From positions 1 through 23,676 of IMG/VR virus record IMGVR_UViG_3300028361_000126: a DNA stretch of 23,676 nucleotides, one strand, 5' to 3'. Source of the DNA: a virus. Positions 563 through 22,867 of the stretch are shown here, piece by piece. The translations under genes and the position numbers were made by a program. Below the pieces are notes generated by a model, which was not told where the DNA came from, made no database searches, and saw only the letters and a list, made by a program, of their open reading frames with translations. Each line of letters opens with the position of its first letter. Within the stretch, counting starts at the first letter, position 1.

Positions 563-595
563 ATCCTAATAAATTGCTCTGTTTTTGTCGCATTT
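563..595 (-). promoter_or_regulatory. Late-type promoter upstream of spike base gene
   Basis: On the minus strand AAATGCGACA (595-586) is followed after 17 bases by TAGGAT (568-563), four of six matches to TATAAT. The motif overlaps the stop codon of the upstream ejection protein gene. The predicted start near 556 would leave about 23 leader bases before ATG 533. One of six like sites; function inferred. Confidence 0.6.
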
Positions 596-3500
596 ATGAT
601 CCGAACCCATCCATGAAGTGTTCGACATATTTAAGTACGTCCTCGTTTTTTTTCTGCCTTGCAATATGCTCCTTTAGGAGTCTATTCTTTTCTTCAAACG
701 GCTTTTGGTCACCAAGAGCGCCCCACCCTTTATGCCACACAATTGCTGTGTCCTCTGGTGTCAGCTTATATCTTTTTGCTACTGCAATGAATTGGTTCAT
801 GAATTCTTCTTGCGCTTCCGGGTCCTTTAGGAACTCCTCCGGCGTGTATGCCTTATCAAGCCACAGTTCTCCCCACTCCTCGAGTGTTTCTGGATGTACT
901 TGATATTTACCAAGGTCTGATGTTTCCTCTCCAATAGACTCGTAGAGGTTTTCCCCACGATCGCGCGCACCTCTGTTTTCTGATTGTATGAAGCCATTCC
1001 GGATGTTGTCATCAGTAGGTTTTTTTGGTTCTGGCTTTTCCACAGGCTGTACAGGTTCAGGTGCAGGTGCAGGTTTTGGTTCCGGCTTTTTCTTCATAAG
1101 CGCAGCACCAAGCGATACCGCTCCTGTAGTCCCGGCGATGGTGAATAGCGGCGATGTGCCGACTGTGCCAAAGGCTTGGACTGGCTCTTTTGCGAGGCTC
1201 GGGTTCACGTCTAGTTGTATCCAAGTGACACCCTTATCATCTGTGACCATTTTTGCATCGTAGTTCTTTTTGAGGAACTTCTGCACGTCCTTTTCGTAGA
1301 ATTTGTAGATGGGGTTGTTGGCGTCTATTTTTCCGGAGATGTCGAATTGTTCTGCATCTCTAGCAAACTTTTCTGAATCAGATGTGCGAGTTTCAATAAA
1401 CTCTCTTGCTTCCTTGCTCGTCTTTGCTGTTTTGGTTGCACCTGTTTTTCTATTTGTTGCGACAAAAATCGTTTCTCCGTTCGTCCCCCTTTCTCTAACG
1501 ATATTCCAAGAATCCCTTGCCTGTTCTTCGAACACTCTTTTCGGCACAGCCTTAAACTTCCCATCTTCGAGGACGTCTGTCACGACCCAGTCACCTCTGT
1601 TTCCACTCGATATCTTTGTCCCCTTCTTAAAGTCGTCAAAGGTTATTGTTTTACCAGTATCTAAGTCCAACATTCTTCCCCAACTTTCTATTCCACTATC
1701 TCCCAACCCCTCCACTTTCATGGCAGTTTCCCCTGTTGGGAACTGTAGCTTTGTCTTGCCATACTTTGCCGCCTGGGCCACCTCCTCCCGGATAATCCGT
1801 TCGTGCCAGGTGTTTCGGTAGGGTTCGAGTTTTCTCATTTCCTCAATTCTTGCGGCTTCTGTAGTCTTATATTTTGCGACCTTTTTTACCTCGACTTCTA
1901 TTTCTTTTTTACTGTATCCTGCATTTTTGAGCTTAGATCTTATTTCACTATCGGTCATCTTAAAACTCACTAAGTTAGATGGAGCCATTTCACTCTCAAG
2001 CCCTCCTTTCTGAAAGAGGTCTGATTGCGCTTCGATGACGCGTCTTGTTTTTCCATCTGCCATGTCCTCGATTCGTGAGTGGGCGAAGTAGTCAGGTATG
2101 TCGCCTTGAAAATGCACGTCGCTAGCTGAGTTCTTTATTGGTGAGGTATATACCCTCTCTTTATATTCTGCAACGTCTCCTCGCACATCATCGGGGAGCG
2201 CAATGTTTTCGTATTGCCCTTTTTTTGAACTTCCTACTCCTCCTGGACCAGTAGCTTTCAGCGGAATCAATTGCGCCTGTACCTTATTTGTGAACTCCTC
2301 TACGTTCACAGTTCTGTTGAAGTCATCCACGATCGATCGTATGAGGTCCCGCTCCGCCTGGCGCAGTTCTCCTCTGTTTGTGGCATCAAGAATATACTGT
2401 TTTGACACAGTTGTTCTACCTTTCAGGTCCTGGAGAATTTTTGTGGTTACGTTGCTATTTCCACCAAGTGCTACGTAGCCACCTTGTGTGTTGGGCTTCT
2501 TTTTCACAACGTCGGCGAAGGGTTTTGTTTTAGGCTTTGCTTTATTAAACGCGTCTGTAGCACTTGATATCCATCCTCTTTTGTCATTCTTCTCTAGATA
2601 TTCAATGATTTCTAGTCTTTTTGCTTCGTTTGGTAAGTCACTCACATCGGTTGATTTTCTCAGCCAGTTATTTATAAAATCATCCGCATTATCGTGTTTA
2701 GCAATTTCTTTGTTTAGTATATTTTGGATAGGTTCTACTTCCTTCTGCTTCCCCTTCACAACGTCGCCGAGAGGTTTTGTTTTAATGTCTTTTGATAATA
2801 CTACTGGTATCTCTTTTATTCCCAATCTCTTATATGCTGAGTATCTGTGATTTCCATCTGTAATTTCAAGACCATTCCCAAAGTCATCAACAACAAGTGG
2901 TATTCTCAAACCATCTTTTATTTCAGCAAGAGCTCTCGCCTTTCGCTCTCCATCAAGACTTGTCTCTGTTGGTGTGAGGTCATCAATCGACACTGTTGTT
3001 CGTTTCACATTGTCTACTCCTCCTATATCATCCAGTGCTTCTATGTACGATGCCTTCCCAACAAATTCGTCACTATCAAATACTTTCAGGCTCTTGTTGT
3101 TAAATTCAGACATTGGATCGGTAATAGTTTCCCCCTTCACAACGTCGCCGAGAGGTTTTGTTGGTTTTTTGGTAACACTTTTATTCCAGTTTACATGATA
3201 GAAAGTTTCTTCTCCTGGCATGGGAGATTGTTCAAACACCACTTTTCCATTTGAGTCTGTAATCTTACTAATGCTTGATGGAGGAACATCTCCTTTGTAT
3301 GCAAAGGATCCTGAGTCAATAGCTCTCTGTCCTATGTAGTCAGCTATGTCATCTCCATTGTCTTGAATTATTTCATAGTAGTCATCATCCACTACAATGT
3401 TTTTGTACTCCTTTTTAGGTACTGAAAATTCTATCAGAGTATCCCCTTTTTTTAATTCTGATATATCAGGTTTATTTTTTAATGCATATGTCCCATCGAT

Positions 3501-5618
3501 ACCATTATTGAATCCTTTGAGGTCTTCTGTTCTTTTGATTCCTCTTGAGCTTGGTTTTAGCAATCCTTCTTCTTGTATTTTTTGTGCTGTAGTTTTCTTC
3601 ACGACATCGCTCAACTTCCTTGCGTTATTCTTAGAAGAAGGTACTATTGGTTCTATGTTATTCTTCGTATTATTTATTATAGTTGTAGCAGTTTGCGCTT
3701 TTCTATTTTCATAGACTTTTGGCGCATCCTTTACTACCGGTAAGTTATCTTTTTTTTTTATATTCTTACCAAAATCAATGACCGGCAATTCATTTGTCGG
3801 TACATATTTTTCTTGAACCTTTGCATTTGAAAACACCTTTGGAGGTCCATCGGCCACAGGTAGGTTTGATTTAGATTTTAGCGCTGCGCCAAGTGATATC
3901 TTTGGCAAGTTAGGATCGTACGATTCGTACATTCGGACATCATTTAGCTTTGTCGATGGACTGTTCTGTGTCGGCGATGCTGATGGTGTTGATTTACCTG
4001 CAGGGTTTGCTCCCGGCATATCAATATTTCTACCTGCAGGAAGTACTGGTGTTACACCTCCTGACCTCATTTCTACATTTGGTTGTCCTGGCTTTGGAGC
4101 AGGGAGTGATAATTGACCTACCTTTTCTGCTGTCGGAAGTCCTACTGTTGGTTTACCTGCAAGAGTCTTTGCTATTTTTGACATCACGCTTTTTGACGAC
4201 AGTGTTTTTTTCACAATGAAGCCTCCCACAGCTGTTGGATCACCTCCTGATAGCATGATCCAGTCAGTAAGTGTCATTGCATTATTCCCGGCTGATCCTG
4301 CGTATTCTTTTCCGAGGTCATCCATTAGCTGACGAGCAAGTCGTGTTTCTCGGTTTATTTGTGGCAAGTTTTGTAGCCCAAGGTTTTCTGCTGTATCAAA
4401 TTGCCACTGCCTTAGTCTATTATCGATATTATTTGAACGTGTGATTTTATCCGAAACATTGTCTCTGATGTAGTCTAGTTTCACATTTCTTTCGTAGAGT
4501 CTTTTTACTTCGTTAATCTCGGACATTGAAAGACCCTCCTGATTGTGTTTATTCAAAAGTTGATTGACTCTTCCTGAGTCTGGCGATATTGCTCCTGGTG
4601 CTGAAACTCTCACTTCACGTTCTGCGAGTTCCTCAAGCGCTGTGTTTACAATTTCCTCTTTGTAGTTTCCTGGCAAAGTAGCAAGCGCTTCGTCTGCTGT
4701 TGTCTTTGATAGTGTAAATCGCTGATATAGCTGATTCGCCACATCATCTACCTCTCCGTATATACCTCTTTTTGTTAAATATTCTCCAACACTTTCTCCT
4801 GCAGTTGCTTCAAACTTGGCTTGCTTTCCTTTTGATATTCTGGCCACACGTTGCATGATTTCCTCGGGCTTGAATCCCCTTACTGCTGCAGGGACAGTAG
4901 GCAAGGCACCTCCCAAGGTTCCTCCTGCTACACCTCCAATAAGCCCTCCTACTGCAGTATCTTTGGCAACACTACCCATTGTGGCATCTTCTTGTTGTAT
5001 TCCCTCTCCTGCGCCAAATAGCGCTCCTCCGGCGGCTCCGTACTTAAGTCCTTCAAGTAGTCCTTGTCCAATTTTTCCTTTAAGTGTCGACGTTGCAACT
5101 TTACTTGCTCCTCCTGTACCCACAGTCCAGGATGCAGTTTTAAGCGCATCGCCTGCTGTTTGTTTAAATGCATCTTCAAATGTATTTGTTGGCGCTACGT
5201 CCACACCTCCTCCTGAACCCATGATTGGCACATTTGTCGGTCCTGCTGTAGCTTTTTCTAGTTGCTGATCAAGAGTGTTTCCCGTTAACCTTTGTACTCT
5301 TTGATCTACTCGCCCGCCTAATACTTTGTCCGCAATCTTGAGACCTCCTGACCCAAGTGCTTGTCCAAAGCGTAGTGCAGGATTTATTACAGCTGATTGT
5401 GCAAAATCAAGCACAGTCGCGTCTGCTGCTTTTTGCGCAATGTTTTTTTCTGGTTTCTTTAATGCTGCAGGAAGACTCTGTGGCTTTGGTTGCCCTCCGT
5501 TTTGTCTAAGGGAATCAAGAAGACTCGAGCCGACTGGTTTCTGGCCCTGAGATTGTGAAGCACCTCCTACGTTGTACTTTTGTCTATATTGTTGAATCTG
5601 TTCTGGTGTGAGTGACAT
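594..5618 (-). CDS. Large multidomain ejection (internal virion) protein with C-terminal transglycosylase-like domain
   Basis: A 1674-residue protein from ATG 5618, four bases after the previous stop; an in-frame TTG at 5651 would add 11 residues. The N-terminus is polar, then Gly/Ala-rich (about 175-260), possibly membrane-active. Further on: a low-complexity stretch with paired NLPVxxxPPKV repeats (about 560-650); a domain resembling ADP-ribosyltransferase folds (about 680-815, AQKIQEEGLLKPSSRG and SGSFAYKGDVPPSSI); a ParB-like domain with DGNHRYSAYKRLG near 918-931; a small helical domain (about 955-1028); and a phage polyvalent region (about 1040-1510) with the FAHSR...IEAQSDLF...WHERI pattern. 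The C-terminus (about 1536-1674) is lysozyme/transglycosylase-like, with candidate catalytic Glu 1547 in FIQSENRG and GKYQVHPETL at 1570-1579. Four KxLxDVVK linkers separate the middle domains. By position and size it resembles T7-type core proteins ejected into the host. The ADP-ribosyltransferase assignment is tentative. Confidence 0.75.
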   Translation of the reverse strand: MSLTPEQIQQYRQKYNVGGASQSQGQKPVGSSLLDSLRQNGGQPKPQSLPAALKKPEKNIAQKAADATVLDFAQSAVINPALRFGQALGSGGLKIADKVLGGRVDQRVQRLTGNTLDQQLEKATAGPTNVPIMGSGGGVDVAPTNTFEDAFKQTAGDALKTASWTVGTGGASKVATSTLKGKIGQGLLEGLKYGAAGGALFGAGEGIQQEDATMGSVAKDTAVGGLIGGVAGGTLGGALPTVPAAVRGFKPEEIMQRVARISKGKQAKFEATAGESVGEYLTKRGIYGEVDDVANQLYQRFTLSKTTADEALATLPGNYKEEIVNTALEELAEREVRVSAPGAISPDSGRVNQLLNKHNQEGLSMSEINEVKRLYERNVKLDYIRDNVSDKITRSNNIDNRLRQWQFDTAENLGLQNLPQINRETRLARQLMDDLGKEYAGSAGNNAMTLTDWIMLSGGDPTAVGGFIVKKTLSSKSVMSKIAKTLAGKPTVGLPTAEKVGQLSLPAPKPGQPNVEMRSGGVTPVLPAGRNIDMPGANPAGKSTPSASPTQNSPSTKLNDVRMYESYDPNLPKISLGAALKSKSNLPVADGPPKVFSNAKVQEKYVPTNELPVIDFGKNIKKKDNLPVVKDAPKVYENRKAQTATTIINNTKNNIEPIVPSSKNNARKLSDVVKKTTAQKIQEEGLLKPSSRGIKRTEDLKGFNNGIDGTYALKNKPDISELKKGDTLIEFSVPKKEYKNIVVDDDYYEIIQDNGDDIADYIGQRAIDSGSFAYKGDVPPSSISKITDSNGKVVFEQSPMPGEETFYHVNWNKSVTKKPTKPLGDVVKGETITDPMSEFNNKSLKVFDSDEFVGKASYIEALDDIGGVDNVKRTTVSIDDLTPTETSLDGERKARALAEIKDGLRIPLVVDDFGNGLEITDGNHRYSAYKRLGIKEIPVVLSKDIKTKPLGDVVKGKQKEVEPIQNILNKEIAKHDNADDFINNWLRKSTDVSDLPNEAKRLEIIEYLEKNDKRGWISSATDAFNKAKPKTKPFADVVKKKPNTQGGYVALGGNSNVTTKILQDLKGRTTVSKQYILDATNRGELRQAERDLIRSIVDDFNRTVNVEEFTNKVQAQLIPLKATGPGGVGSSKKGQYENIALPDDVRGDVAEYKERVYTSPIKNSASDVHFQGDIPDYFAHSRIEDMADGKTRRVIEAQSDLFQKGGLESEMAPSNLVSFKMTDSEIRSKLKNAGYSKKEIEVEVKKVAKYKTTEAARIEEMRKLEPYRNTWHERIIREEVAQAAKYGKTKLQFPTGETAMKVEGLGDSGIESWGRMLDLDTGKTITFDDFKKGTKISSGNRGDWVVTDVLEDGKFKAVPKRVFEEQARDSWNIVRERGTNGETIFVATNRKTGATKTAKTSKEAREFIETRTSDSEKFARDAEQFDISGKIDANNPIYKFYEKDVQKFLKKNYDAKMVTDDKGVTWIQLDVNPSLAKEPVQAFGTVGTSPLFTIAGTTGAVSLGAALMKKKPEPKPAPAPEPVQPVEKPEPKKPTDDNIRNGFIQSENRGARDRGENLYESIGEETSDLGKYQVHPETLEEWGELWLDKAYTPEEFLKDPEAQEEFMNQFIAVAKRYKLTPEDTAIVWHKGWGALGDQKPFEEKNRLLKEHIARQKKNEDVLKYVEHFMDGFGS
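2503..3162 (-). repeat. Near-identical linker repeats inside ejection protein gene
   Basis: Bases 2751-2781 and 3132-3162 are identical over 31 positions and encode the TKPLGDVVKG linker. A diverged third copy lies at 2503-2529 (KPFADVVKKK), and a fourth, more distant, near 3590-3615 (KLSDVVKKT). Each copy falls at a boundary between predicted domains, so they mark module edges and could act as homology for domain exchange. Confidence 0.75.
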
Positions 5619-5622
5619 ATTT

Positions 5623-7725
5623 TTATGCGTAATATCCTTCTTGTCTTGCAATTGCTTCTACTAATTTATCAATAGGTAATGTACTTGTCGCAATGTTTGG
5701 ATCTACTCCCAGTATTGTGGCCACAGAATTGGTCCAGTTAGGATCCTCTGCGTATACCTTTCCAAGCTGTGCGAGTGTCGGGTTCTTTGGTAGGAACCTG
5801 CTGTTTCCATTTATCTTCGCCTGGATGTCTTTTTGCATTGCGAGGAAGCCTGTCTTTTCGTCTGGGAATATAAGGTGTCCTTGATTGTCCTTTCCTATTG
5901 CCAGGCTATCCGCTAGCCCACCTTGCTTTATGTTTCCTGGGTTTTTATTCCTCTGTGGAAGATTGCCGGAATCTGAGGTATTTCCAACCATGCTAAAACC
6001 CTCTCTGGTGTCAAGGATTTGCCAGATGTCATCTTCTGAAAGATCGCTGTTTTCGTTTATCATTTGCTCCACCCTCTGTTGATTCTCCAGTGATTGATTA
6101 AAGTATTCTTGAAGATTATTTGGTTGCCCTCCCCCTTGTGAGTTCTTTGATGCAGTATCTCTCATCTTCACAAAAACTTCTCTCACTTTATTAAGGTTGT
6201 CCTTCATTAGTTTATCACCAATTCCAAACTTGAGTGAAGCCTGCACATTTCCAAGGAGCGCAAGCTCTTTTTCTGAGACGTTTCCTAGCGCACCTCCGGT
6301 CGGTGATGCTGCTCGCATTGCAGTTAGTTCTCCGAATGCAATGTTCGCAAAGACAGTCTCGAGTGTTGATTGAAGTTTGAAAGCATCTGAGCCTGGTATT
6401 TTTTCTGCAATGTTTCCAAAGAACCCTGTGCTTGTATCTTTTAATTGCTCTAGAGCCAAGTCGATTGCAGGGATGGCAGCCTCAGCTTTCTGGAATGCAT
6501 AATCATCCATCTTGCTTGAAAGTTCCCCACCTCGTCCTGATCGGTAGATTTCTGCAATCACCTCCTCTCGGCCTGATGGTGTGAGGTCTTTAAGTGATGC
6601 GACGTTTGCGAGGATACCACTTGTAAGGTCTGACACTTGACCTGCTCCTGACCCTATTCCTGTTCCTGATCCTGATGTCATTCCTTTGTTCACAAACATT
6701 TGCTGAGTTGGGTCTTTTTTATTAAAAAACATAATACGATCGCCAAGGTCTGCGCTCCCATCAAATTCTGCAGGAAGTCCAAGGTCTACAGTTTCGATTG
6801 TTATCTTACCTGTGATTGGGTTTTGTCTTGCGATTACGTATGACCCTCCTTTCATTTGTTTATCTATAATTTGGTCCTGTGGAGTGTTTAGAACGAATGC
6901 TCCCTTTAGCATAGCCTCTCCTCCGAAATTATCCACGAAGTGTGCGAATGCTGCAGGGTCTGTTGCTTTCAGTCCTTCGTATGTTACTCCTGCTGAGGTT
7001 AGGTAGGTAACGTCCTGGACCGCTTTTTCTTGTGCGGCCGCGCGCGCCTCTAGCCTTCCTGTTTCGTCAAGTCGTGCCTCTGCTCGCCTTGCTCTTGATT
7101 CTGCGAGGGCGTTTGTTGCTACATCACTGAGAATAGACTGAATTTTTATCTCAGTCTCGGCTCGGATTCCTTTATTGGCTTGCTGACCTATTGTAGTGGT
7201 CTTTTTTTGCTCTACGTCCGCTTCAGTTGACCCTGCAAGGCCTGTTAGGCTTGATATTGCATTGGTGTTTCGGTCGTTCTTATCATTGATTACTCTCTGC
7301 TCCTGGAGCAGTGTGTTTTCGTAGTCACGAAGTGAGTTGACTTGGCCCTGGGCTGCACCCAGCATTTCTCTGTGTACATTCTCAAAGCTATTTGTGTCGC
7401 TACCTCTATTTCCTCTTCCGTTATCACTACTTCGAATGCTTCTTTTCACAGGTTTTTCTACCGACCCGGTTGACCCCATTGAGCCTGTCGGTTCCGGGTT
7501 TCGAGGTGCTGATGTCGTATCGATTTGACCCAGTTGCTGAAAGCTACCACCACCTCTTTTTGATAGTCCACCTGTCATTTCATTTACCTTTGCAATAGAC
7601 TCATTGAGCCGAGTCATTTGCTCTGGAGTTCCTTGTGTACCACCTGAGTTTCGTCTCTCAGCTCTTTGTTCTCGATTCGTACTTCTTCGTGTACCTGTGT
7701 TTTGTGTGTTTCTTCTTCGTGCCAT
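5623..7725 (-). CDS. Internal virion/ejection protein with RNKNPGNI peptidoglycan-hydrolase-like C-terminus
   Basis: A 700-residue protein. The first 30 residues are Arg/Asn-rich (RRRNTQNTGTRRSTNREQR), followed by Gly/Ser-rich low complexity, then long Ala/Glu/Arg-rich helical stretches (about 110-230). The last 113 residues (from about 588) carry RNKNPGNIKQGG, FPDEKTGFLAM, a TLAQLGKVYAED segment, ATILGVDPN and a final AIARQEG. This is the layout of the small phage domain with an R-N-N-N-P-G-N-I signature, associated with peptidoglycan-degrading structural proteins. It lies directly upstream of the larger transglycosylase-bearing protein with a four-base gap, so the two probably form the ejected core. 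Start ATG 7725 is preceded by AATAATAAT and no Shine-Dalgarno. The hydrolase role is inferred from the motif; the rest of the protein is unrecognised. Confidence 0.72.
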   Translation of the reverse strand: MARRRNTQNTGTRRSTNREQRAERRNSGGTQGTPEQMTRLNESIAKVNEMTGGLSKRGGGSFQQLGQIDTTSAPRNPEPTGSMGSTGSVEKPVKRSIRSSDNGRGNRGSDTNSFENVHREMLGAAQGQVNSLRDYENTLLQEQRVINDKNDRNTNAISSLTGLAGSTEADVEQKKTTTIGQQANKGIRAETEIKIQSILSDVATNALAESRARRAEARLDETGRLEARAAAQEKAVQDVTYLTSAGVTYEGLKATDPAAFAHFVDNFGGEAMLKGAFVLNTPQDQIIDKQMKGGSYVIARQNPITGKITIETVDLGLPAEFDGSADLGDRIMFFNKKDPTQQMFVNKGMTSGSGTGIGSGAGQVSDLTSGILANVASLKDLTPSGREEVIAEIYRSGRGGELSSKMDDYAFQKAEAAIPAIDLALEQLKDTSTGFFGNIAEKIPGSDAFKLQSTLETVFANIAFGELTAMRAASPTGGALGNVSEKELALLGNVQASLKFGIGDKLMKDNLNKVREVFVKMRDTASKNSQGGGQPNNLQEYFNQSLENQQRVEQMINENSDLSEDDIWQILDTREGFSMVGNTSDSGNLPQRNKNPGNIKQGGLADSLAIGKDNQGHLIFPDEKTGFLAMQKDIQAKINGNSRFLPKNPTLAQLGKVYAEDPNWTNSVATILGVDPNIATSTLPIDKLVEAIARQEGYYA
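5663..5691 (-). promoter_or_regulatory. Late-type promoter upstream of large ejection protein gene
   Basis: Minus strand TGCGACA with GCGACA at 5691-5686, 17 bases, then TAAATT at 5668-5663. It lies inside the 3' end of the upstream gene. The upstream flank is AACAT rather than the ATAAA or AAAAA of other copies, so it is the most diverged of the six. The predicted start near 5656 leaves about 38 leader bases to ATG 5618. Confidence 0.5.
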
Positions 7726-7729: not shown

Positions 7730-9883
7730 TTATTTACTTATTGGTCTTAAACTTATTCTGGTTGAATTTTGTACTGTCGTAGTGTATGTATTGTAAATAA
7801 CACCTTGATAGCAAAGGTCTGCATTTATATTAACAGCAGGTGCTCCCACTTGAGTGCCGTTTGAATACAAACCTTGTTTGTTACTAGATATTAATGTTGT
7901 TGTAGAGCCATCTATATTATCTAGTCTGTATAAGTCTAAGTTACCACTTATTGTTCTTGATAAATAAGCAAATGTCCCATCGTAGAAATAACAGTTTTCA
8001 TTAGTTGCAAAACGAGAAGCGACAACAGTTGCTGTAGACACCGCGGTAAACACTGTGCCACTTACTGACCACCTTCTTGATGTAGTCTCTGAGCTTTGTG
8101 ATACTAAGTAGACATCTACCCCATTTGACCAGACACCAAGACTACTAAAACAAGCTACTGTTGGAACTGTCATAGTAGTTTCTCCTGTTAAATCGGCAGC
8201 TAAGAATCTCGAGCAAGCAATGTTTGCACCATTGCTGAAAAATATATATAAGTGAATACCGATGACTACAAACCCTCCACCATCACCGTTACTTGGTGTG
8301 ATTGTGGGGTTTGCATTGTGAGTTAACTTATATTGACCTGACTTTGCATCTCTTTGGTATCTATATATAAGACCTGAGTTTTGTATATGAACAAATAATT
8401 GAGAGCCATCAGTTGATGAGCCTAGTAGAAGTTCTGTTGAAGAAACTAATGATTCTACTTGATTCAACGCCAAGTCTTGTTGAAAGAAAGGTATTGCTGT
8501 TGATGCGGGTATCAGGTCTTCATCTATCTTCCCTGTTGCTCCAGTCTTTACTACCTGATTCACATTTCCTTCTAGTGTCTTGTAGTAGAGAAATGATGAT
8601 GCAAGTTGTACCCATCCATTGGTAGCGTTTCTGTAGTACACAGTTCCGTCACCTCCTGAAGTATCTGCTCCGAGATTAGGATGGTTTGAGTTATCTGCTG
8701 TTGATGTTGTCACTACAATCCAGTAGAAAGCACCAATAACGAGAGCTCCGTACTCTGTTGTAAATATAGCCTCGAACTCTGCTGCACTTAACCCTAGCCA
8801 CTTTGCGTTTGTAAGTGTCACTGTTGCAAGGTTTGTTCCTGTCGGAGCGATTCCTGCACCTGCATCAGCTTGTAGTGAAACTGTTACTGTACCCGTGAAT
8901 GTACCTGTATCAGCTTTCTTGAATAGTAATGCACCTCGCATCTTTGTCTTTGTCGCAACAAATCTTTGTGCCAAGTCATTATTTTTAGTAGTTGCATCTG
9001 CCTCTCCCACTGCAATAGTATTTGTTGATACTAGCTGAGTTTGTAGCACTGCTGATTGGGTGATTTCGTTTGTCGAAACAAAGTCTGTGATTCTGTTCTC
9101 AAAGTTTACAAATAATTCTGTTGCGCTTTTTGCTACACCCACAAAGATGTCATTTGTTGGAGCTGTTTGTGTAATATCTCCTACTGTTGTAGAGATGTAT
9201 TGCGATGCTCCTGGAGTCATCCCTGATTGGTTCGTATCAGTTCCTCGCACAAGTACACCACCTGTGATTGCAACACCATCAGTTCCTGCTCCTTGAGCAA
9301 TACCAAATTGTGTATCATCTCCATACGCTGTATCTGCATCGGCTCTGTACCATTCTTGGTCTGTAGTATTAAAGTATAGGACTCTTCCTATTGTAAATGT
9401 TTCGCCTGCATTTCCTGTAGCGATAACTTTTGCATAAGAAATAGCGCCAGCCGATCCTGAATCATCAACATATCCCTTTGTTGCAAGTTCTTCTCTATTT
9501 GAAAGAGTTGGTTCTGTTGCATATCTTAGAGAATTTGGAAGAGCATCGTCTCCATTAATCATTCCCTTAAGTAGCTGTATGATCGGCGCATCGGTTATTT
9601 TTATATTGGCTCCCCGCCTGTGAGAGAACTTGTTTGCATTCACTGATGTTTTTCCATCCGCATATGATACCCCTCTTATGAGTGAAGTCATTTCGGTTCC
9701 ATCTACAGTTCCACAAACTATCTCCGCTTGGGCCGATCCTTCGTCTACTGTTATACATACAAGCCCGGACAATGCACCACCTCCTCTCACCGCGTTTGCG
9801 GTCAGAGTTAAGCTCGTCGATGCTGATGTTATTGGTGATGCTAGTGAGGTTTCCCACACTGCTGCTATTTCGGGTAATGACAT
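7730..9883 (-). CDS. Tail fibre/receptor-binding protein
   Basis: A 717-residue Ser/Thr/Gly/Asn-rich, strand-forming protein, typical in composition of tail fibres. An N-terminal module of about 120 residues (ending near GDDALPNSLRY) is probably the virion anchor. ELATKGYVDD at about 132-141 is a motif often seen at the junction to fibre repeats. Middle segments (for example FTGTVTVSLQADAG, FYWIVVTTST, DGTVYYRNATNGW) resemble beta-sandwich modules. The last 230 residues contain spaced YxYQRD, SNGVDVYLV and DGTFAYLSR segments suggesting a beta-propeller. It follows the nozzle gene, the usual place for a fibre in this gene order. The start at ATG 9883 has no Shine-Dalgarno, and a promoter -10 ends only eight bases upstream. 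Receptor and exact fold cannot be told from the sequence. Confidence 0.72.
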   Translation of the reverse strand: MSLPEIAAVWETSLASPITSASTSLTLTANAVRGGGALSGLVCITVDEGSAQAEIVCGTVDGTEMTSLIRGVSYADGKTSVNANKFSHRRGANIKITDAPIIQLLKGMINGDDALPNSLRYATEPTLSNREELATKGYVDDSGSAGAISYAKVIATGNAGETFTIGRVLYFNTTDQEWYRADADTAYGDDTQFGIAQGAGTDGVAITGGVLVRGTDTNQSGMTPGASQYISTTVGDITQTAPTNDIFVGVAKSATELFVNFENRITDFVSTNEITQSAVLQTQLVSTNTIAVGEADATTKNNDLAQRFVATKTKMRGALLFKKADTGTFTGTVTVSLQADAGAGIAPTGTNLATVTLTNAKWLGLSAAEFEAIFTTEYGALVIGAFYWIVVTTSTADNSNHPNLGADTSGGDGTVYYRNATNGWVQLASSFLYYKTLEGNVNQVVKTGATGKIDEDLIPASTAIPFFQQDLALNQVESLVSSTELLLGSSTDGSQLFVHIQNSGLIYRYQRDAKSGQYKLTHNANPTITPSNGDGGGFVVIGIHLYIFFSNGANIACSRFLAADLTGETTMTVPTVACFSSLGVWSNGVDVYLVSQSSETTSRRWSVSGTVFTAVSTATVVASRFATNENCYFYDGTFAYLSRTISGNLDLYRLDNIDGSTTTLISSNKQGLYSNGTQVGAPAVNINADLCYQGVIYNTYTTTVQNSTRISLRPISK

Positions 9884-9890
9884 ATTGTAT

Positions 9891-9923
9891 ATATTAAATT
9901 ATTAATGTTGTTTTGTCGCATTT
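9891..9923 (-). promoter_or_regulatory. Late-type promoter upstream of tail fibre gene
   Basis: Minus strand AAATGCGACA (9923-9914), 17 bases, TAATAT (9896-9891). The element begins in the stop codon of the nozzle gene. Transcription would start at about 9884, next to ATG 9883, so the fibre message would be leaderless or nearly so. Confidence 0.62.
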
Positions 9924-11823
9924 ATACTGTTCGTGACGGAGTGTTCTTCCTTCCTTTGTCTCTGATGTCTTTAAACTTTATCTTATTCGCCTGGACGTAC
10001 CCCACCTTTGTGGCCACAAGTCTTACCTGTACATCTACAAACTTGTCGGAGTTTACCGGGAAGTCTACCTCGAATGGACTCGCTGTGTCCGACCCTCCTG
10101 AACCAATTGTTTTTGACCCAAGTGTTGGACCTCCGATTGATGTATTTTTTCCTGCGTCCACGTAGATTCCATCGCCTTGGATAGTGAACACCTTGGTGAA
10201 TGATCCACTGTCGTATGATAGCCACACCTCTAGCTCCTGCTCTTTTTGGATAAGTCCATCTATAACCATTTTCCGACAGTTCTTTAGGTGATCCGTTCCG
10301 AGGTTGAGCGCTGATGATGTCCAGTAGTTTTCTATCACGTCTCCATCCTCGTCATATCCTGAAAATAGGATGTAGCAGTTGTTGGTTATTGAGTCTCCTG
10401 CGATTAGAAGCCCATCGTATTCGGCCAAGCACCCCACGTAGTAGTTGAGTCTATCCCACACCTTATTTTCTGATGCGATGTTTCGTATCCAGGTTACTGA
10501 ATTGTGATTATCTGCTATTCCATTTTGTTTCGCCTGGGATGAGAATATTTCATAGTCTCCCCATCGATACACTACTCCCTTTGAGTGTCCGAATTCCGAC
10601 AGGTTAATTCTATCCGAGATTGGTTCCGGCTCGATTGTTGTGATGTCAGTTCCCTGGAGTACCTTCATTTTTCTGTACTTTGGTTCGCTTGGATTTGATA
10701 GGTCGGCCATGATTATTCCATCCGGTGTTTGGTGCGCTGCGAGTGTGTGTGGAATACCTACGTTTCGATACTCAAGGTTTACTGACTCTGTGTCATCTAC
10801 GCTTGATTGAAATTGCCATGTCTTGAGTTCGTGAAAGCAGTATACTGTCGTGTTGATGTTGTAGATGGCCATTAGCTTTCCACCACCTGTGTCTTGTCTA
10901 AACGATTTTCCTTGTCCGTTTAGGTTTCCTGTGAAGTCTAGGATTCCTGTCGAGGTTGATGTCTCGTGGTAGTACGATGCGGTGATTGCTTGCGCGTTTG
11001 TTGGTGCTGTATTGAAAGTCACAGAGAATGCTCCTGTTGCGTAGTTTATAGTCCCGGTTCCGCCGAGGTCACCTACCATGTTTCCATCACGATCGTCTAC
11101 GAATGTTTCCACAGTATCGGTGATTGATGGGAACATCACTGTTTTTGGCGCTGTGGCGACAGCAAAGGTCCCGGTGAACGTTATTGCCACACCTGTCCCT
11201 GAGCCCACATTCTCCCCTGTGACCTGCGTGAAGTCCGATAGTTGGTCTTTGTCGATATATGACAAGTAAAGCCCTGTACGGTCATTATTACCTGCTACAG
11301 TACCATTCCTCTGTCCGGCGAAGACTCTTGATTGCCCTGGATGGAATACTCCCCACCGGTAGTTGTTTACCTCCTGGTCTACCGCGCTTCCGGGATTTGC
11401 TGTTGGTATCTTATAGACTGATGAGTTCTGCGACCCTATGTACATAAAAGACCCTGCAAGGCCTTGGTATAGTTTCATCCAAACATCCTCTCCGTTTGCA
11501 GTCGCCGGGAGCAGGTCAGTATCGATTTCCACAGTGTCGTCCAGGTCCGCATCATAGTATTTTACTTTTCGGCCATAAGCGAAGAACAGCACCTCGGTTC
11601 CGTTGTACTTTTTTCCTCTACCTATTCCGGTCACCCTTCCTGTACCATTTACTCTGGTTTGCCCCAGGAGCGTATATCCTCTCCGAAGAGCGATACTGTC
11701 TTGCTCCTTTGAAGTGACCCAGTTGAGCGCATCTGGCGAGTACCCCGCCCTGAGTGTCTTTATATCTCTTACGGAAGTGTTTTGTCCGTAGAATGTGTCT
11801 ATTGTGAAGTCATTAATAATCAT
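9922..11823 (-). CDS. Tail nozzle/hub protein
   Basis: A 633-residue, strand-rich protein. It contains FAYGRKVKYYD, GSFMYIGSQNSSVYKI, AGQRNGTV and GLYLSYIDKD segments of the kind found in beta-propeller nozzle proteins, and an early ALRRGYTLLGQ segment typical of proteins that read out genome-capsid connection parameters in P22 gp10-like and T7 gp12-like families. It follows the predicted adaptor gene by 11 bases and precedes the fibre gene, the standard order of a podoviral neck and tail. A late-domain immunoglobulin-like segment (about 200-270) includes GTGTINYATGAFSVTF. No cysteine-rich or enzymatic motif was seen. Start ATG 11823 has a TTTAATATG leader. The nozzle call rests on order and composition; a hub or stopper role is the alternative. 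Confidence 0.62.
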   Translation of the reverse strand: MIINDFTIDTFYGQNTSVRDIKTLRAGYSPDALNWVTSKEQDSIALRRGYTLLGQTRVNGTGRVTGIGRGKKYNGTEVLFFAYGRKVKYYDADLDDTVEIDTDLLPATANGEDVWMKLYQGLAGSFMYIGSQNSSVYKIPTANPGSAVDQEVNNYRWGVFHPGQSRVFAGQRNGTVAGNNDRTGLYLSYIDKDQLSDFTQVTGENVGSGTGVAITFTGTFAVATAPKTVMFPSITDTVETFVDDRDGNMVGDLGGTGTINYATGAFSVTFNTAPTNAQAITASYYHETSTSTGILDFTGNLNGQGKSFRQDTGGGKLMAIYNINTTVYCFHELKTWQFQSSVDDTESVNLEYRNVGIPHTLAAHQTPDGIIMADLSNPSEPKYRKMKVLQGTDITTIEPEPISDRINLSEFGHSKGVVYRWGDYEIFSSQAKQNGIADNHNSVTWIRNIASENKVWDRLNYYVGCLAEYDGLLIAGDSITNNCYILFSGYDEDGDVIENYWTSSALNLGTDHLKNCRKMVIDGLIQKEQELEVWLSYDSGSFTKVFTIQGDGIYVDAGKNTSIGGPTLGSKTIGSGGSDTASPFEVDFPVNSDKFVDVQVRLVATKVGYVQANKIKFKDIRDKGRKNTPSRTV

Positions 11824-11834
11824 ATTAAATATCG

Positions 11835-12551
11835 TTAGTCGTATCGGTTTATGGCACCTGATCTGAACCCTCCTCCATATCCATCTGTTGGGTCATTTGA
11901 CTGAATGGCTCCGAGTGACTTTTCGTTGTCCCAGGACTCCATTGCGTTTTTAATTGCGTTTAGTACCGCTTGGTTTGAAGGAAGCATTTGTCGGTTGATT
12001 GAGTCGTAGTCGACTGCGCCTTTGTGAATTCCTATTGCATAGTATGCGAGGATAGGCAAGAACCTTGAGGGGAAAACTGGCCACGCTATCGTCGCTGAAT
12101 CCTCCAGGTCTACCTCTGCGCTTGTTGCTAGATATGTCAGCCAGATGTTTCCACTGAACGGAGGTTTTCCGTTGAGGTAAAGTATCTTTGCGTTCTCATC
12201 ATATACACAGGTGTGTGATGAGTCCTTGAACTCTAGTCGTTGATCAAATGGTTTCAGCGTGTAGTATTCTACTCGATTTTCTCCATCAAATATCTTTAGC
12301 GCAGTTCCATCGCTTGTGACGTATATTCTCGACAGGTCTGTGATGGTCGACAGGTCGATTGCAGTTTGCCACGTACCTGATGCGCTTACTACCTTTGTGG
12401 TATCTGTTTTGAGTAGCACGTTCCATGGTCGCTCTTCTTCCAAGATCGCTTTGGCGTTACTTATGAGTATGTTTGCAAGGGACACGTCGATAGTCGCACC
12501 TCCATTGAGTTGCGTTAGAAAGTTGTATAATTCTGTGCCTTTTGTAATCAT
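11835..12551 (-). CDS. Head-tail adaptor (tail tubular A-like)
   Basis: A 238-residue protein of the size and place of T7 gp11/P22 gp4-type adaptors, the ring that docks under the portal. The helical N-terminus (TELYNFLTQLNGG...NILISNAKAILEEERPW) is followed by a strand-rich middle (LSRIYVTSDGTALKIF, RVEYYTLKPF) and a helical C-terminus (AWPVFPSRFLPILAYYAIGIHKG). The W/Y-P-xFxxxLPxLAYY stretch resembles the last helices of these adaptors. It lies between capsid and nozzle genes. Its start at ATG 12551 overlaps nothing; the stop of the small coiled-coil gene is at 12553-12555. A late-type promoter lies 18 bases upstream. Assignment is from context, length and secondary-structure pattern. Confidence 0.65.
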   Translation of the reverse strand: MITKGTELYNFLTQLNGGATIDVSLANILISNAKAILEEERPWNVLLKTDTTKVVSASGTWQTAIDLSTITDLSRIYVTSDGTALKIFDGENRVEYYTLKPFDQRLEFKDSSHTCVYDENAKILYLNGKPPFSGNIWLTYLATSAEVDLEDSATIAWPVFPSRFLPILAYYAIGIHKGAVDYDSINRQMLPSNQAVLNAIKNAMESWDNEKSLGAIQSNDPTDGYGGGFRSGAINRYD

Positions 12552-12552
12552 A

Positions 12553-12810
12553 TTATTGTGCTAAATCATTTATACTAAATGGAGGTGTTTGTGTCGCATT
12601 TTTCTCTTCTTTTCCCTTTTCCATTGCCTCTGATATCTTTTGTTCGACAATTGTCCCCACGTTATCCACGATCGTCTGTGCAAGCGTTTGAAGTGTTCTG
12701 ACAAGGTCCATGTTTAACTGTTCGTACTTTTCTACCTTCTTACCAAGTTCCTGGACGATAACGTCTAGGTCTTTTTCTGTTTCTTCTTTTTTTTCTGTTT
12801 CTTTTTCCAT
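12553..12810 (-). CDS. Small coiled-coil protein between capsid and adaptor genes
   Basis: An 85-residue, Glu/Lys-rich protein, MEKETEKKEETEKDLDVIVQ at the start, with heptad-like leucines and valines (LDVIVQELGKKVEKYEQLNMDLVRTLQTLAQTIV) predicting a continuous coiled coil to about residue 65, then a short PPFSINDLAQ tail. I recognise no family. Its place directly after the major capsid gene suggests a head decoration, scaffolding accessory or head-completion role, but nothing in it proves that. The 3' third also carries a promoter for the next gene. Start ATG 12810 has an A-rich AAAAAACAATT leader. Confidence 0.65.
   Translation of the reverse strand: MEKETEKKEETEKDLDVIVQELGKKVEKYEQLNMDLVRTLQTLAQTIVDNVGTIVEQKISEAMEKGKEEKNATQTPPFSINDLAQ
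12569..12601 (-). promoter_or_regulatory. Late-type promoter upstream of adaptor gene
   Basis: Minus strand AAATGCGACA (12601-12592), 17 bases, TATAAA (12574-12569), five of six matches to TATAAT and the best -10 of the set. It lies wholly within the 3' coding end of the preceding small gene. The predicted start near 12562 gives an 11-base leader. Confidence 0.65.
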
Positions 12811-12834
12811 AATTGTTTTTTGTCTTGGCGCTAT

Positions 12835-12858
12835 CTCAACCCTCCGGGGAGAGCTGAG
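12835..12858 (-). other. Stem-loop downstream of capsid gene
   Basis: The minus-strand transcript can form a nine-pair stem (CTCAGCTCT with GGAGGGTTGAG partners, two G-U pairs) closing a CCCCGG loop. It lies 22 bases after the capsid stop. No uridine run follows, so it is not a classic terminator. A message-stabilising or processing hairpin at the end of the most heavily translated gene is the likely reading. Confidence 0.5.
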
Positions 12859-12880
12859 TAGTGCAGAGACTTTATCGAGA

Positions 12881-14167
12881 TTATCGACTTAGTGGTTCTG
12901 AACCTGAGAATGCTGATGATGCTACTGCATATGAAACAATTTGCGGAGCTTGGTCTGTGAAGACTTCGATTCCGTAAGCTGTCCATACGATGTAGTCTCG
13001 TCCGATTTTTCGGCTCACTGAGTTTTCTTCCATTGAGGGGTTCTTTTGAACCACAAGAGAACATGATCGTGCAAGCGCAAAGATGCAATTTACTTTCTGT
13101 TTTACAACAGTGAAGATTGCAGATGTTACGTTTGTCGATACTACAATAGTACCTTTTCCTGCTCCTTGGAGAGTCATGGTATCTGCTGCGTTATCGTTTA
13201 CTGCAACGAAGTTTCTAAGTAGTCTTTGTTCTGCTCGAGTTGCTGATGAGGCACCTGCATCTGCTGATTCCGCTACTGAAGTTCTTCCTCCTGCATTCAA
13301 GAATGCTGCAAGGTTAGCTCGAGTAATGTCCACAGTTGATGCGATGTGAATCTCAGTTGCTCCTGTTGCTGCTGACAGTGTAGAAACAAAAGTGATTACA
13401 ACACCATTGATTGTGACAGTTTGTCCGTTCGTAGGATTTGTTGCCATTGCAAGTGTTACTGATCCTGAAAGTGCGTTCGAAGTGAAAGTTTCAAACCCTT
13501 GGAAATAACCTGAGTATCCGTTTCGTGATACTTGGTCTCCAAGTAGAGTGTCTTTTCCTCCTAGGTACAATTCAATCGCTGTAAGAATTTCTGGAGAGAT
13601 TGCCGCTGCAGGCATTCCTTCTGGAACTTCTAGCTTCATCTTTGAACTAAATCGCTTGTGGTATACCACGTTCTTTAGTCGAAGTTTTTGCATGGCAGTA
13701 GTGAAGACTGTTGCAACGTTTGATGCAGTAAGTACGTGTCCGTTTCCGGCTGTACCTGCAAATGTTCCATCATCCATCACTGTTCCTGCGCCTAGGTGCA
13801 ATTGAAGCAATACGTCTGCATCGATTTGGTTAATCAAAGCATTCGCAAGTTTCTGGCCATACTTTTGCTTAACAGGAAGGTGAGCTTGTAGCTCGTCAAG
13901 TTTCTTGATGTAGATACTTGATTCCTTCTCGTAGTTGATAGTAAGTGTTTCTTGAGTGTCAGTAATCGCTTGTGGATCGTAACTTCCGTCTCCTCCCATG
14001 TCATTCACATCAACATCTGATGCGAACGATCGAGCAATTGTTTGACCCTTTGTGAGTGACGCTTCTAGACGTGAGTCAGCAAAAATTTGATACACGGGCT
14101 CTTTGTAGTGAGACATCTGGTACTCTGCTGAGAACACAGTTTTGAAGGTCATTGTATTTGGGTTCAT
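12881..14167 (-). CDS. Major capsid protein with inserted beta domain
   Basis: A 428-residue protein following the scaffold gene. The N-terminal part (MTFKTVFSAEYQMSHYKEP...FADSRLEASLTKGQTIARSF) and the middle (INYEKESSIYIKKLDELQAHLPVKQKYGQKLANALINQIDADVL) follow the N-arm, E-loop strand and long spine helix of HK97-fold capsid proteins. The C-terminal part (RKIGRDYIVWTAYGIEVFTDQAPQIV) is the usual late P-domain strand. Residues about 235-355 look inserted: NGQTVTINGVVITFVST, ATEIHIAS, NLAAFLNAGG and NDNAADTMTLQG match a small beta domain common in phage virion proteins. The ATG at 14167 has an ATTATATG leader without Shine-Dalgarno. The capsid call is strong by context and layout. Confidence 0.85.
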   Translation of the reverse strand: MNPNTMTFKTVFSAEYQMSHYKEPVYQIFADSRLEASLTKGQTIARSFASDVDVNDMGGDGSYDPQAITDTQETLTINYEKESSIYIKKLDELQAHLPVKQKYGQKLANALINQIDADVLLQLHLGAGTVMDDGTFAGTAGNGHVLTASNVATVFTTAMQKLRLKNVVYHKRFSSKMKLEVPEGMPAAAISPEILTAIELYLGGKDTLLGDQVSRNGYSGYFQGFETFTSNALSGSVTLAMATNPTNGQTVTINGVVITFVSTLSAATGATEIHIASTVDITRANLAAFLNAGGRTSVAESADAGASSATRAEQRLLRNFVAVNDNAADTMTLQGAGKGTIVVSTNVTSAIFTVVKQKVNCIFALARSCSLVVQKNPSMEENSVSRKIGRDYIVWTAYGIEVFTDQAPQIVSYAVASSAFSGSEPLSR

Positions 14168-14188
14168 ATAATGATTTTAAATTAACGT

Positions 14189-15112
14189 TTAAATGATAAT
14201 TTTTCGTCCATTACTGTCGGTTGATAGCTCACCATTAGATGAAGTTGCTTTATTGTATTCATTGTACCAAGCAATGGTCTCGGATTCGGTCATCTTTGAG
14301 AAGTCAGGTGATGTATTTAGGTCTACTGTTGTAGTTGGTTTCACACCATTCTTTTCTTGAGGACTTTTTGACTCGAGGCCACGTTTTTTTGGTGAGATAA
14401 GTTTCGATAATGCATCCTTGCTTTTGTATATGATGTAGTCAATTTCTTTATCGTGATACTGGTCAGTATGAGCAAGTTCACTTAATTTACTTTTGATCAC
14501 TTCTTTATCTATCTCCGATAGTTCTGGGAAAAATTCTTTTAGAGTTGGAGCCGCTTGGTCGAACTCTTGATTGAATGATTGCTCATCGCTCTGTGTGTTC
14601 GATATCCGCTTTGCATCGTCAAGTGTCCGCCGATCATCCTCTGAAAGTGACGAGATATCCTTGGTCAAGATTGTTTTTAGTTGCCTTAGAGTGTCCGGGG
14701 ACATCTCGTTTTCTTCAGCAAACTTTGACAATTCGTCCTGAACATCTTCATTCTCTTCCTGGGTCGAAGCGCTGTTTCCTTTTTCGATGATAGCTTTTAG
14801 TTCCAAGTTTTCTCTCTCTAATTCTTTGCTTCGCTCTTTTTCATTTCTAAGGTCTTTCTTTTTCTCCTTATACTCTTCATAGATACGTCGCGGTTTACTA
14901 GCTTGTTTCTCCTCTTCTTGATTCTCGGGTTTTTCAGGCTCTTCTTCATGATCGTCTTTTCCTTCAGGGTCAGCTTTCGGCTTATCTTCCGGTGTGTGAT
15001 CGTCTTGAGGTTTCGCTTCTGGTTCCTTTGTTTCAGGAGGAGTTGGATTCTCTAGTTCTGGTAAGTCGACTCCGTTAGCTTTCAAATCTTCCAAATATTG
15101 TTTTTCGTCCAT
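14189..15112 (-). CDS. Scaffolding protein
   Basis: A 307-residue, extremely charged protein immediately upstream of the capsid gene. Residues 1-75 are Pro/Glu/Asp/Lys-rich and disordered in appearance. Residues about 78-115 form a strong coiled coil (YEEYKEKKKDLRNEKERSKELERENLELKAII), followed by helical segments (EDVQDELSKFAEENEMSPDTLRQLKTIL; FFPELSEIDKEVIKSKLSELA). The C-terminus has TTTVDLNTSPDFSKMTESE, a pattern seen in many podoviral scaffold tails. Scaffold proteins of this type line the inside of the procapsid and leave before packaging. No protease signature was seen. The start at ATG 15112 follows the 145-base noncoding gap. Confidence 0.8.
   Translation of the reverse strand: MDEKQYLEDLKANGVDLPELENPTPPETKEPEAKPQDDHTPEDKPKADPEGKDDHEEEPEKPENQEEEKQASKPRRIYEEYKEKKKDLRNEKERSKELERENLELKAIIEKGNSASTQEENEDVQDELSKFAEENEMSPDTLRQLKTILTKDISSLSEDDRRTLDDAKRISNTQSDEQSFNQEFDQAAPTLKEFFPELSEIDKEVIKSKLSELAHTDQYHDKEIDYIIYKSKDALSKLISPKKRGLESKSPQEKNGVKPTTTVDLNTSPDFSKMTESETIAWYNEYNKATSSNGELSTDSNGRKIII
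14193..14220 (-). promoter_or_regulatory. Possible promoter upstream of capsid gene
   Basis: Minus strand CCGACA (14220-14215), 16 bases, TATCAT (14198-14193). The -10 matches TATAAT at five of six bases and the -35 shares CGACA with the late-type sites, but the spacing and first bases differ and AAATG is absent. It overlaps the 3' end of the scaffold gene and would give a leader of about 20 bases. Confidence 0.3.
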
Positions 15113-15257
15113 GGTGTATTTATTTATGTTTCGTTCTCACGAAAAATGGTTTTGTAGTCATGTCCATTAACACCGCTGTTCTTAAAACCTGCACAGCTCG
15201 GGAAAACCACACTAATGATGTGATTTATCGGACCTTGGATATACCAAGGTCTTAAAA
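15113..15257 (-). ncRNA. Structured noncoding gap, candidate RNA element
   Basis: The only long gene-free gap inside the late block. On the minus strand it holds: an eight-pair perfect hairpin GACCTTGG-TATAT-CCAAGGTC (15251-15231) right after the upstream stop; a long-range seven-pair helix TGGTTTT/AAAACCA (15209-15203 with 15153-15147) that encloses a GCTGT/ACAGC hairpin (15197-15193 with 15179-15175); and a six-pair hairpin TTTCGT-GAGA-ACGAAA (15144-15129) with a GNRA tetraloop just before the scaffold start. No uridine run follows any stem. It may be a leader controlling scaffold/capsid translation, a processing site or a small RNA. Pairing was found by eye and not by energy calculation. 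Confidence 0.4.
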
Positions 15258-15554
15258 TTACACCAACTTTCCTCCTGTATTTTCAGCGAATTCCTCCGCC
15301 TCCTTCTTTGTCTTGAAGTCTTTGTATGCAATTGGTCCTTTTCGAGTTCCGTTTTCGAGTAGCTCCCGGTACACAGCTTTAAATGCTCCTGCTTCCTCTG
15401 CTTCTGGCGCTGATTCTTCTGCTCGTCCTGGATCAAGTGCTTCTGCTGCGGCTTTCTCAGCTGCTTTTTTTGCTGCGGCTTTTTCTGCTGCTTCTGCCTT
15501 TGCTTTTTTTTCTGCTGCTAAGGCCTTAGCCTCTGCTTCTTTGTTGTTTGACAT
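15258..15554 (-). CDS. Small Ala/Lys/Glu-rich head-module protein
   Basis: A 98-residue protein. Residues 5-40 are an almost pure Ala/Lys/Glu helix (EAEAKALAAEKKAKAEAAEK and on), predicting a long charged coiled coil or single helix, followed by an acidic linker (GRAEESAPEAEEAG). The C-terminal 40 residues form a compact-looking unit with VYRELLENGT, IAYKDFKTKKEAEEFAENTGG. I recognise no family. Between portal-side genes and scaffold it may be a head-assembly accessory. A plus-strand frame over the same bases is a shadow. ATG 15554 has an AT-rich leader (TATAAAACA) and a late-type promoter about 35 bases upstream. Confidence 0.65.
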   Translation of the reverse strand: MSNNKEAEAKALAAEKKAKAEAAEKAAAKKAAEKAAAEALDPGRAEESAPEAEEAGAFKAVYRELLENGTRKGPIAYKDFKTKKEAEEFAENTGGKLV

Positions 15555-15586
15555 TGTTTTATATTATAAATTATTAACGCTTTTTT

Positions 15587-15619
15587 AATCTAGCAATTAT
15601 GCAACACTATGTCGCATTT
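15587..15619 (-). promoter_or_regulatory. Late-type promoter upstream of small head gene
   Basis: Minus strand AAATGCGACA (15619-15610), 17 bases, TAGATT (15592-15587). The GCGACA core ends in the TAG stop codon region of the preceding gene. The predicted start near 15580 leaves about 26 leader bases before ATG 15554. Confidence 0.58.
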
Positions 15620-15981
15620 ATCGCCTGCTCAATTTCTCTTTTGATTGTTTTCACTATTCCCTTCGCATCTACATCCGAAAGCATAAGCTCAAGCATGAGC
15701 ATGATTGCATCCTGTTTATTCCACAAGTTTGCTCGGTCCTGGTCGCTTAGGCTACGATCGTATGCAAGTTTTACACCAATTTCTTTGTATGCGCTTTTGA
15801 ATAGCTGCACGATATGTTCTGTGTACTCATGCTCCTTCCATGATGCAAGTGGTTCATTCTCACTTAGTACTTGTTGCCACTGGTCTAGGGTGCGCCGATT
15901 ATCCTCAATGATATCTGAATCAAGTTCGTCATCTAGGAATATCTTCCTTATCCTTTCCATTTGGTTGTTTTCGTTTGACAT
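15607..15981 (-). CDS. Small protein following the portal gene
   Basis: A 124-residue, mostly helical acidic protein: IRKIFLDDELDSDIIEDNRR near the start, DQWQQVLSENEPLASWKEHEYTEHIVQLFKSAYKEIGVKLAYDR in the middle, and a final amphipathic helix (IVKTIKREIEQAINAT). No family recognised; no membrane segment or metal site. It starts four bases after the portal stop with an AATAATATG leader and ends with TAG inside a promoter motif. Its position suggests a head-assembly or portal-associated role, by context only. Confidence 0.65.
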   Translation of the reverse strand: MSNENNQMERIRKIFLDDELDSDIIEDNRRTLDQWQQVLSENEPLASWKEHEYTEHIVQLFKSAYKEIGVKLAYDRSLSDQDRANLWNKQDAIMLMLELMLSDVDAKGIVKTIKREIEQAINAT

Positions 15982-15985
15982 ATTA

Positions 15986-18010: not shown

Positions 18011-18017
18011 AGTGATA

Positions 18018-18050
18018 AAGATATCAGGTTATGTGTTTTTTGTCGCATTT
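18018..18050 (-). promoter_or_regulatory. Late-type promoter upstream of portal gene
   Basis: Minus strand AAATGCGACA (18050-18041), 17 bases, TATCTT (18023-18018). It sits over the 3' end of the zinc-ribbon gene, in a reading register different from the other coding-overlap copies. Transcription would start near 18011, essentially at the portal ATG, predicting a leaderless message. Confidence 0.62.
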
Positions 18051-18320
18051 ACTTCGTTGGTACGCTCTCGAGCATCTTATACATCTACCTTTCGAGTGGT
18101 ACTTCACCACTGTGAATGCTATCTTGCAGTCCGCACATCGCCCGGCGAGGTTTCCGTTTGGAACCAGTGGGTTCTTTACGTATTCACAGTGGGTGCAGGG
18201 CATGAACTCAATGAGTATATCCCTTGCGATCGACTCTCTGATGTTTGGCAGTAGGAATATCTCCTCGCACCGGTGACACCTCTTTTTAATGTTCTCGGGC
18301 CTATTCATTGAAGTTGTCAT
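18024..18320 (-). CDS. Double zinc-ribbon protein between terminase and portal genes
   Basis: A 98-residue basic protein with four CxxC pairs: C15/C18 (RCHRCEE), C42/C45 (PCTHCEY), C62/C65 (RCADCKI) and C80/C83 (RCIRCSR), plus a lone C92. The spacing suits two zinc ribbons or knuckles in tandem. No enzyme motif is visible, so a structural zinc role in nucleic-acid or protein binding is likely. ATG 18320 overlaps the preceding 49-residue gene by 20 bases; Met5 at 18308 is an equally possible start with an eight-base overlap. It ends with TGA, one proof that TGA is a stop here. It may help packaging by virtue of its place, but this is a guess. Confidence 0.72.
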   Translation of the reverse strand: MTTSMNRPENIKKRCHRCEEIFLLPNIRESIARDILIEFMPCTHCEYVKNPLVPNGNLAGRCADCKIAFTVVKYHSKGRCIRCSRAYQRSKCDKKHIT

Positions 18321-18450
18321 TTAGTGGACCTTCATACGGAGGTTGAATGAAGGGTTCTTCGCATCCGTTTATGCATTGGTATCCATCATTCTTATCAAGC
18401 ACAGCATCAGCATCGGCCTGCAGTAGTTTGCATATCTTACATCTAAACAT
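18301..18450 (-). CDS. 49-residue zinc-ribbon microprotein
   Basis: A short frame from ATG 18450 to TAG 18301: it begins MFRCKICKLLQADAD and has C4/C7 (RCKIC) and C26/C30 (QCINGC), a likely single zinc site, then an acidic tail (PPYEGPLNDNFNE). It fills the otherwise empty gap between the large terminase and the double zinc-ribbon gene and overlaps the latter's start. The paired cysteines and tight packing support it being real. Function unknown; it may be a paralogue or partner of the next gene. The leader is A-rich (GAAACAAA) without Shine-Dalgarno. Confidence 0.6.
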   Translation of the reverse strand: MFRCKICKLLQADADAVLDKNDGYQCINGCEEPFIQPPYEGPLNDNFNE

Positions 18451-18490
18451 TTTGTTTCTATCGTATTGTTTCGATATCATAGTTTTAGTA

Positions 18491-21688: not shown

Positions 21689-21691
21689 AAG

Positions 21692-22285: not shown

Positions 22286-22289
22286 ATTA

Positions 22290-22722: not shown

Positions 22723-22728
22723 GGTCTG

Positions 22729-22757: not shown

Positions 22758-22803
22758 CCATACGTTATACACAGGGGTTTATTGCCATATTACGCACCAT
22801 AAC

Positions 22804-22818: not shown

Positions 22819-22830
22819 ATTATGTGAATT

Positions 22831-22840: not shown

Positions 22841-22867
22841 TTGGTATATATAGCTTTTGCCTCTAAC

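Follow-up and report, generated by a model that had tools for sequence, protein, structure and literature searches.

Large polyvalent proteins, known from phages and from conjugative elements, have been proposed to be injected together with the phage DNA, and proteolytic release of domains is supposed for those with metallopeptidase domains; proteolytic processing has been described for phage P1 DdrB (Iyer et al. 2017, PMC5512222). For podovirus ejection proteins (T7 gp14-16, P22 gp7/16/20), the available text of PMC8954989 presents domain swapping as pervasive mosaicism. The proteins studied here are like the polyvalent proteins of PMC5512222 in being long chains, apparently of disparate domains, encoded near virion genes and in their domain set, with Zeta_toxin, LPD38 and weak RelA_SpoT and ART-PolyVal matches in relatives and a weakly matched ParB-like domain in the protein under study. 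By description they also resemble the podovirus ejection proteins, being large, probably internal to the virion and subject to swapping of functional domains, for which the available text of PMC8954989 describes no repeated joints. Unlike the account in PMC5512222, from whose text the word "linker" is absent, our proteins display near-identical peptides at the joints of segments and tandem motifs at N-termini, neither of which we found described there. Nor did a literature search of incomplete coverage turn up any account of joints or tandem starts of this sort.

The window analysed spans a complete virus record (23,676 bases) and represents a single population. Its terminase and major head genes were identified on the minus strand, and putative portal- and tail-like genes were assigned by position. 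The gene of the large protein (P0001; 594..5618, minus strand), the last full gene in the window, lies in an open reading frame (594-5651) that begins with TTG. Counted from this TTG, as are all residue numbers below, the protein comprises 1,685 amino acids; the ATG at 5618, just after the stop codon (5623-5625) of the preceding gene, is the likelier start. The large-protein gene directly follows this gene (5623-7725), an arrangement also found in relatives, and its position after the major head, tail and neighbour genes, constant among relatives, places it among the late virion genes. A second contig, IMGVR_UViG_3300028364_000128 (L009), is 99.98% identical to window positions 8521-23676 over 15,156 bases; it stops within the 7730-9883 gene, short of the large-protein gene, and continues the genome at the opposite side with a PIF1-like helicase and a VapE-like protein. 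Elsewhere in the window, 20444-21688 (minus strand) encodes a 414-aa protein with a ParB_N-like domain (below the curated cut-off) ahead of an N6/N4 DNA methylase.

Neither the large protein as a whole nor its linker region yielded relatives in direct scans, probably because the 8-residue patterns were overly strict, and neighbour genes served as queries instead. Relatives were gathered by head, portal and tail alignments (35 portal loci, 80/201 tail loci, one MAG contig), and 48 related metagenomic records supplied the homologous protein at the same place, behind a gene resembling 5623-7725; this set includes a few near-duplicates (e.g. L110 and L113) and a few proteins cut by contig ends. 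Homologues at this locus reach 2,085 residues. Among deposited phages the tail protein had no match and the terminase distant matches only. One relative lies within a MAG (L053, L065) of a phylum with genomes mostly of 0.5-1.2 Mb, and a Patescibacteria-like host is at most suggested. In 380 genomes of this phylum the N-module of the large protein (see below) was not found, and the whole protein gave weak matches only, nearly all to its ParB region.

All-versus-all BLASTP revealed that modules are exchanged among the homologues. The N-module of the window protein (residues 163-568; 3948..5165, minus strand) is common to L006/L019 (43%) and L118 (45%), and reappears in L019 and L118 with different C-termini. 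Its C-module (residues 1068-1498; 1158..2450, minus strand) is 42% identical to residues 1004-1408 of the L132 protein, where it follows another N-module, namely that of L013. Pfam Zeta_toxin scored above the cut-off in five proteins (L019:11519-13933; L017:11424-14258; L064:819-3503; L086:10001-14710; L106:7999-13995), a cargo found in at least three N-terminal contexts, one of which L017 and L064 have in common. LPD38 (Pfam) was detected in L086 and L106, sub-threshold Pfam RelA_SpoT and ART-PolyVal matches in L100, and a ParB domain in L132 (residues 911-970; TIGR00180, E=1.7e-3). L102 and L103 have their last 900-odd residues in common and differ in the preceding parts. The C-terminal domain of the MAG-derived relative L065 (L065:1570-4092, residues 680-839) matches phrog_2579, a ParB C-terminal domain family (E=7e-26). 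Private internal repeats occur in L118 (L118:15030-17456, residues 539-660, three LGLDEVRNATINRQ-like units) and in L125 (L125:14994-18509, residues 358-475, three EVFVERNSEMVPV-like units).

Between the two modules, the window protein contains three consecutive segments of 144, 117 and 74 residues, at whose ends sit exactly four K-x-x-x-DVVK-like peptides (starting at residues 679, 832, 959 and 1043), all encoded, like the segments, on the minus strand. Linker 1 (KLSDVVKK, residues 679-686) is encoded at 3594..3617, linker 2 (KPLGDVVKGE, residues 832-841) at 3129..3158, linker 3 (KPLGDVVKGK, residues 959-968) at 2748..2777 and linker 4 (KPFADVVKKK, residues 1043-1052, continuing into PNTQGGYVAL) at 2496..2525. 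Just ahead of linker 1 lies a 32-residue repeat, with copy A (LPKISLGAALKSKSNLPVADGPPKVFSNAKVQ) at residues 582-613 (3813..3908, minus strand) and copy B (LPVIDFGKNIKKKDNLPVVKDAPKVYENRKAQ) at residues 622-653 (3693..3788, minus strand); the pair scores 80, and shuffled sequences reach 50 at most. A similar stretch forms the tail of the L014 protein (residues 647-713), which is without recognised cargo.

The first-pass annotation had described these peptides as linkers at the boundaries of an ADP-ribosyltransferase-like, a ParB-like and a small helical domain. Their placement at segment ends held, whereas the first of these domain labels received no support: residues 688-831, between linkers 1 and 2 (3165..3587), matched no ADP-ribosyltransferase in Pfam, NCBIfam or PDB, and a BLASTP comparison with the C-terminal part of the L065 protein revealed no similarity (E=0.82). 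The label of the second segment was partly upheld. A ParB/sulfiredoxin-like domain (residues 861-957; 2781..3071, with its DGNHRYSAYKRLG core within 2793-2918) matched Pfam ParB_N at E=8.6e-4 (19.7 bits, below the curated cut-off of 26.3) and ParB/Noc/SbnI structures in PDB at E ~3e-3. Sequence matches thus point, weakly and consistently, to a ParB-like fold between linkers 2 and 3, the sole part of the window protein with any family match. The 74-residue segment between linkers 3 and 4 (2532..2747) is probably helical. Single-sequence fold predictions were not used, either for the linker-bounded part (pLDDT 33, poor for want of an alignment) or for the C-module (pLDDT 50).

At the DNA level, the reported 31-base identity between 2751-2781 and 3132-3162, which covers most of linkers 3 and 2, was confirmed by direct reading, and the two diverged copies (2495-2532 and 3594-3617) were located as well. 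A 29-base core of the repeat occurs twice in the window (at most 3 mismatches) and in none of 100 shuffles. A profile built from the four linkers scored these at 28-36, compared to 15.8 for the average shuffled maximum and 15 for the next-best place; in leave-one-out profiles, p was 0 of 300 shuffles for copy 4 and 0.03 for copy 1. Linkers 2 and 3 use the same codon at 9/9 shared residues (3.4 expected from the codon usage of the gene), linkers 2 and 4 at 5/7 (2.9 expected) and linkers 1 and 4 at 1/5 (2.1 expected), which marks linkers 2 and 3 as recent DNA copies, makes the same probable for linker 4 and shows linker 1 to be old. A self-repeat search of the large protein found no repeats linking the three segments to each other, so that the joint alone, not a domain, was copied. 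As the identical repeats are spaced 381 bases (127 codons) apart, recombination between them would delete the ParB segment in frame. Folding of the linker DNA was unremarkable, with no hairpin at the linkers. The SLGAAL segments near 3890 and 1100, proposed earlier as further relatives of the linkers, were not among the 14 highest-scoring places found with the profile, and the pair is absent from the self-repeat list; the claim was dropped. Grouping SLGAALK, DFGKNIKK, KGLGTLLKSK (L017) and KGLGTVLPDK (L065) into one family with the linkers was likewise non-significant after allowing for 48 tests.

It had also been expected that linkers persist among homologues while the domains between them vary. 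This was observed for linker 4 only: its region (KPFADVVKKKPNTQGGYVAL) aligns with QQFSDKIKNTPNKQGGFIKL of L132 at a score of 64, and the null, drawn from 48 proteins with 60 shuffles, did not exceed 50. The linker-4-like peptide precedes the ParB domain in L132 and the C-module in the window protein, and L132 has ParB and C-module in the same order as the window, lacking the helical segment between them. At the level of sequence, a joint here clearly has another neighbour, a single case that supports the proposed layout. No counterpart of linkers 1-3 was found among the 48 relatives, so that homology of this linker cannot be what drove most of the observed exchanges. Hence, of the layout in which linker homology was said to allow domain gain or swap, the exchange of modules is clear and the joints were recently copied as DNA, whereas linker homology as the cause of exchange is unproven.

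A different kind of repetition was found at the N-termini of the homologues. Within the first 60 residues, 23/49 start with two near-identical tandem copies of a short motif (among them L016, L015, L019, L017, L018, L013, L014, L063, L091, L118 and L131), for example DLSKYKK, SYxSKLKPI, MTRAEYEAKYG or ETLLQKAQRLGMKPA. Such starts were rare (~7%) in the neighbour gene (2/40), the tail gene (3/45), other open reading frames (9/119) and inside the same proteins (4/48), a difference with a Fisher p of ~1e-10 when the phages are counted as independent despite their kinship. Likeness of motif copies was 0.74 within a protein and 0.27 between proteins. Motif class proved independent of the N-module, with classes shared by unrelated N-modules and homologous N-modules bearing different classes. 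In 21 tandem pairs, the same codon was used at 57/155 identical residues (68 expected from codon usage alone); because this sharing is no higher than codon usage predicts, the copies are kept alike at the protein level, in contrast to the fresh DNA copies among the window linkers. The N-terminal motif recurs inside the chain in 6/27 proteins at p<=0.05, clearly in L102, where a third copy at residue 484 lies ahead of the part common to L103. The window protein itself has no tandem N-terminal motif (46/100 shuffles score as well). By analogy, the internal copy in L102 hints at a possible common nature of joints and N-terminal motifs.

These motifs bear on what the joints do. The joint could be a functional short linear motif, i.e. 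a docking or loading tag whose target is the portal, the adjacent virion protein (5623-7725) or the inside of the capsid, repeated along the chain and maintained by selection on the protein like the N-terminal motifs of the relatives. The excess of tandem starts over all controls, their upkeep at the protein level, their independence from N-modules and the internal copy in L102 all fit this possibility, as does the DVVK common to linkers 1 and 4, encoded mostly by different codons. The internal proteins and Alt of phage T4 carry a capsid-targeting sequence, and a short peptide that sends cargo into the head would act like such a repeated motif, a functional resemblance only. However, the window protein is without the N-terminal motif, this motif mostly does not recur inside the chains of the relatives, and the joints are equated with it by analogy; we give a tag function some credence, short of an even chance. 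Its general form is a rather doubtful proposal: in this phage group, a phage-specific short peptide that is present at least twice, N-terminally and in some cases at module joints too, would dock the large delivered protein to a virion partner and, being swapped independently of modules, would serve as a general loading tag for interchangeable cargo.

Two further explanations give the joints other roles or none. They may be inert spacers, with the identity of linkers 2 and 3 a chance local duplication unrelated to domain gain; the differences of linkers between phages and the unremarkable folding of their DNA agree with this, yet copies at segment ends three times over, and a DVVK retained between the old copies despite codon change, make an inert spacer unlikely. 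Cleavage at K-x-x-x-DVVK by a phage or host protease, freeing the domains before packaging or after injection, would account for a near-identical peptide at every boundary and has a precedent in the proteolytic processing of P1 DdrB (PMC5512222). Since no peptidase domain was found in the large protein (Pfam, PHROGs, NCBIfam; the other genes of the window were screened in part), we consider processing distinctly improbable.

We favour, as moderately probable, a large polyvalent protein with repeated joints that were copied along with gained domains. Four joints far above chance, the codon identity of joints 2 and 3 and mostly 4, the exchange of modules, the order of ParB domain and C-module in L132, the polyvalent domain set of the relatives and the fixed place of the gene behind the tail genes support this explanation. 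It would be a long chain of the tailed-phage polyvalent kind, in which an N-terminal module is combined with changing effector or nucleic-acid domains, and it would probably be packaged into the virion for delivery together with the DNA. The K-x-x-x-DVVK peptides would form the joints of its modules. The older joint, linker 1, would have been copied as DNA as the chain gained its ParB-like domain and its small helical segment, leaving the near-identical joints 2, 3 and 4; with joints 1-3 found in none of the relatives, a single sequence underlies this proposed order. The joint peptide may be a short element, flexible or used for docking, that is compatible with any neighbour. Recent copying of the joints fits a recent gain of domains, without proving that the joints drove it.

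Little is known of how phages select proteins for packaging and delivery alongside their DNA, and knowledge of polyvalent proteins consists mainly of domain lists. The copied joints of this chain show how polyvalent chains may grow, and the repeated motif with which about half of the homologues begin, conserved as protein sequence, would be a testable candidate for a cargo-independent loading signal.
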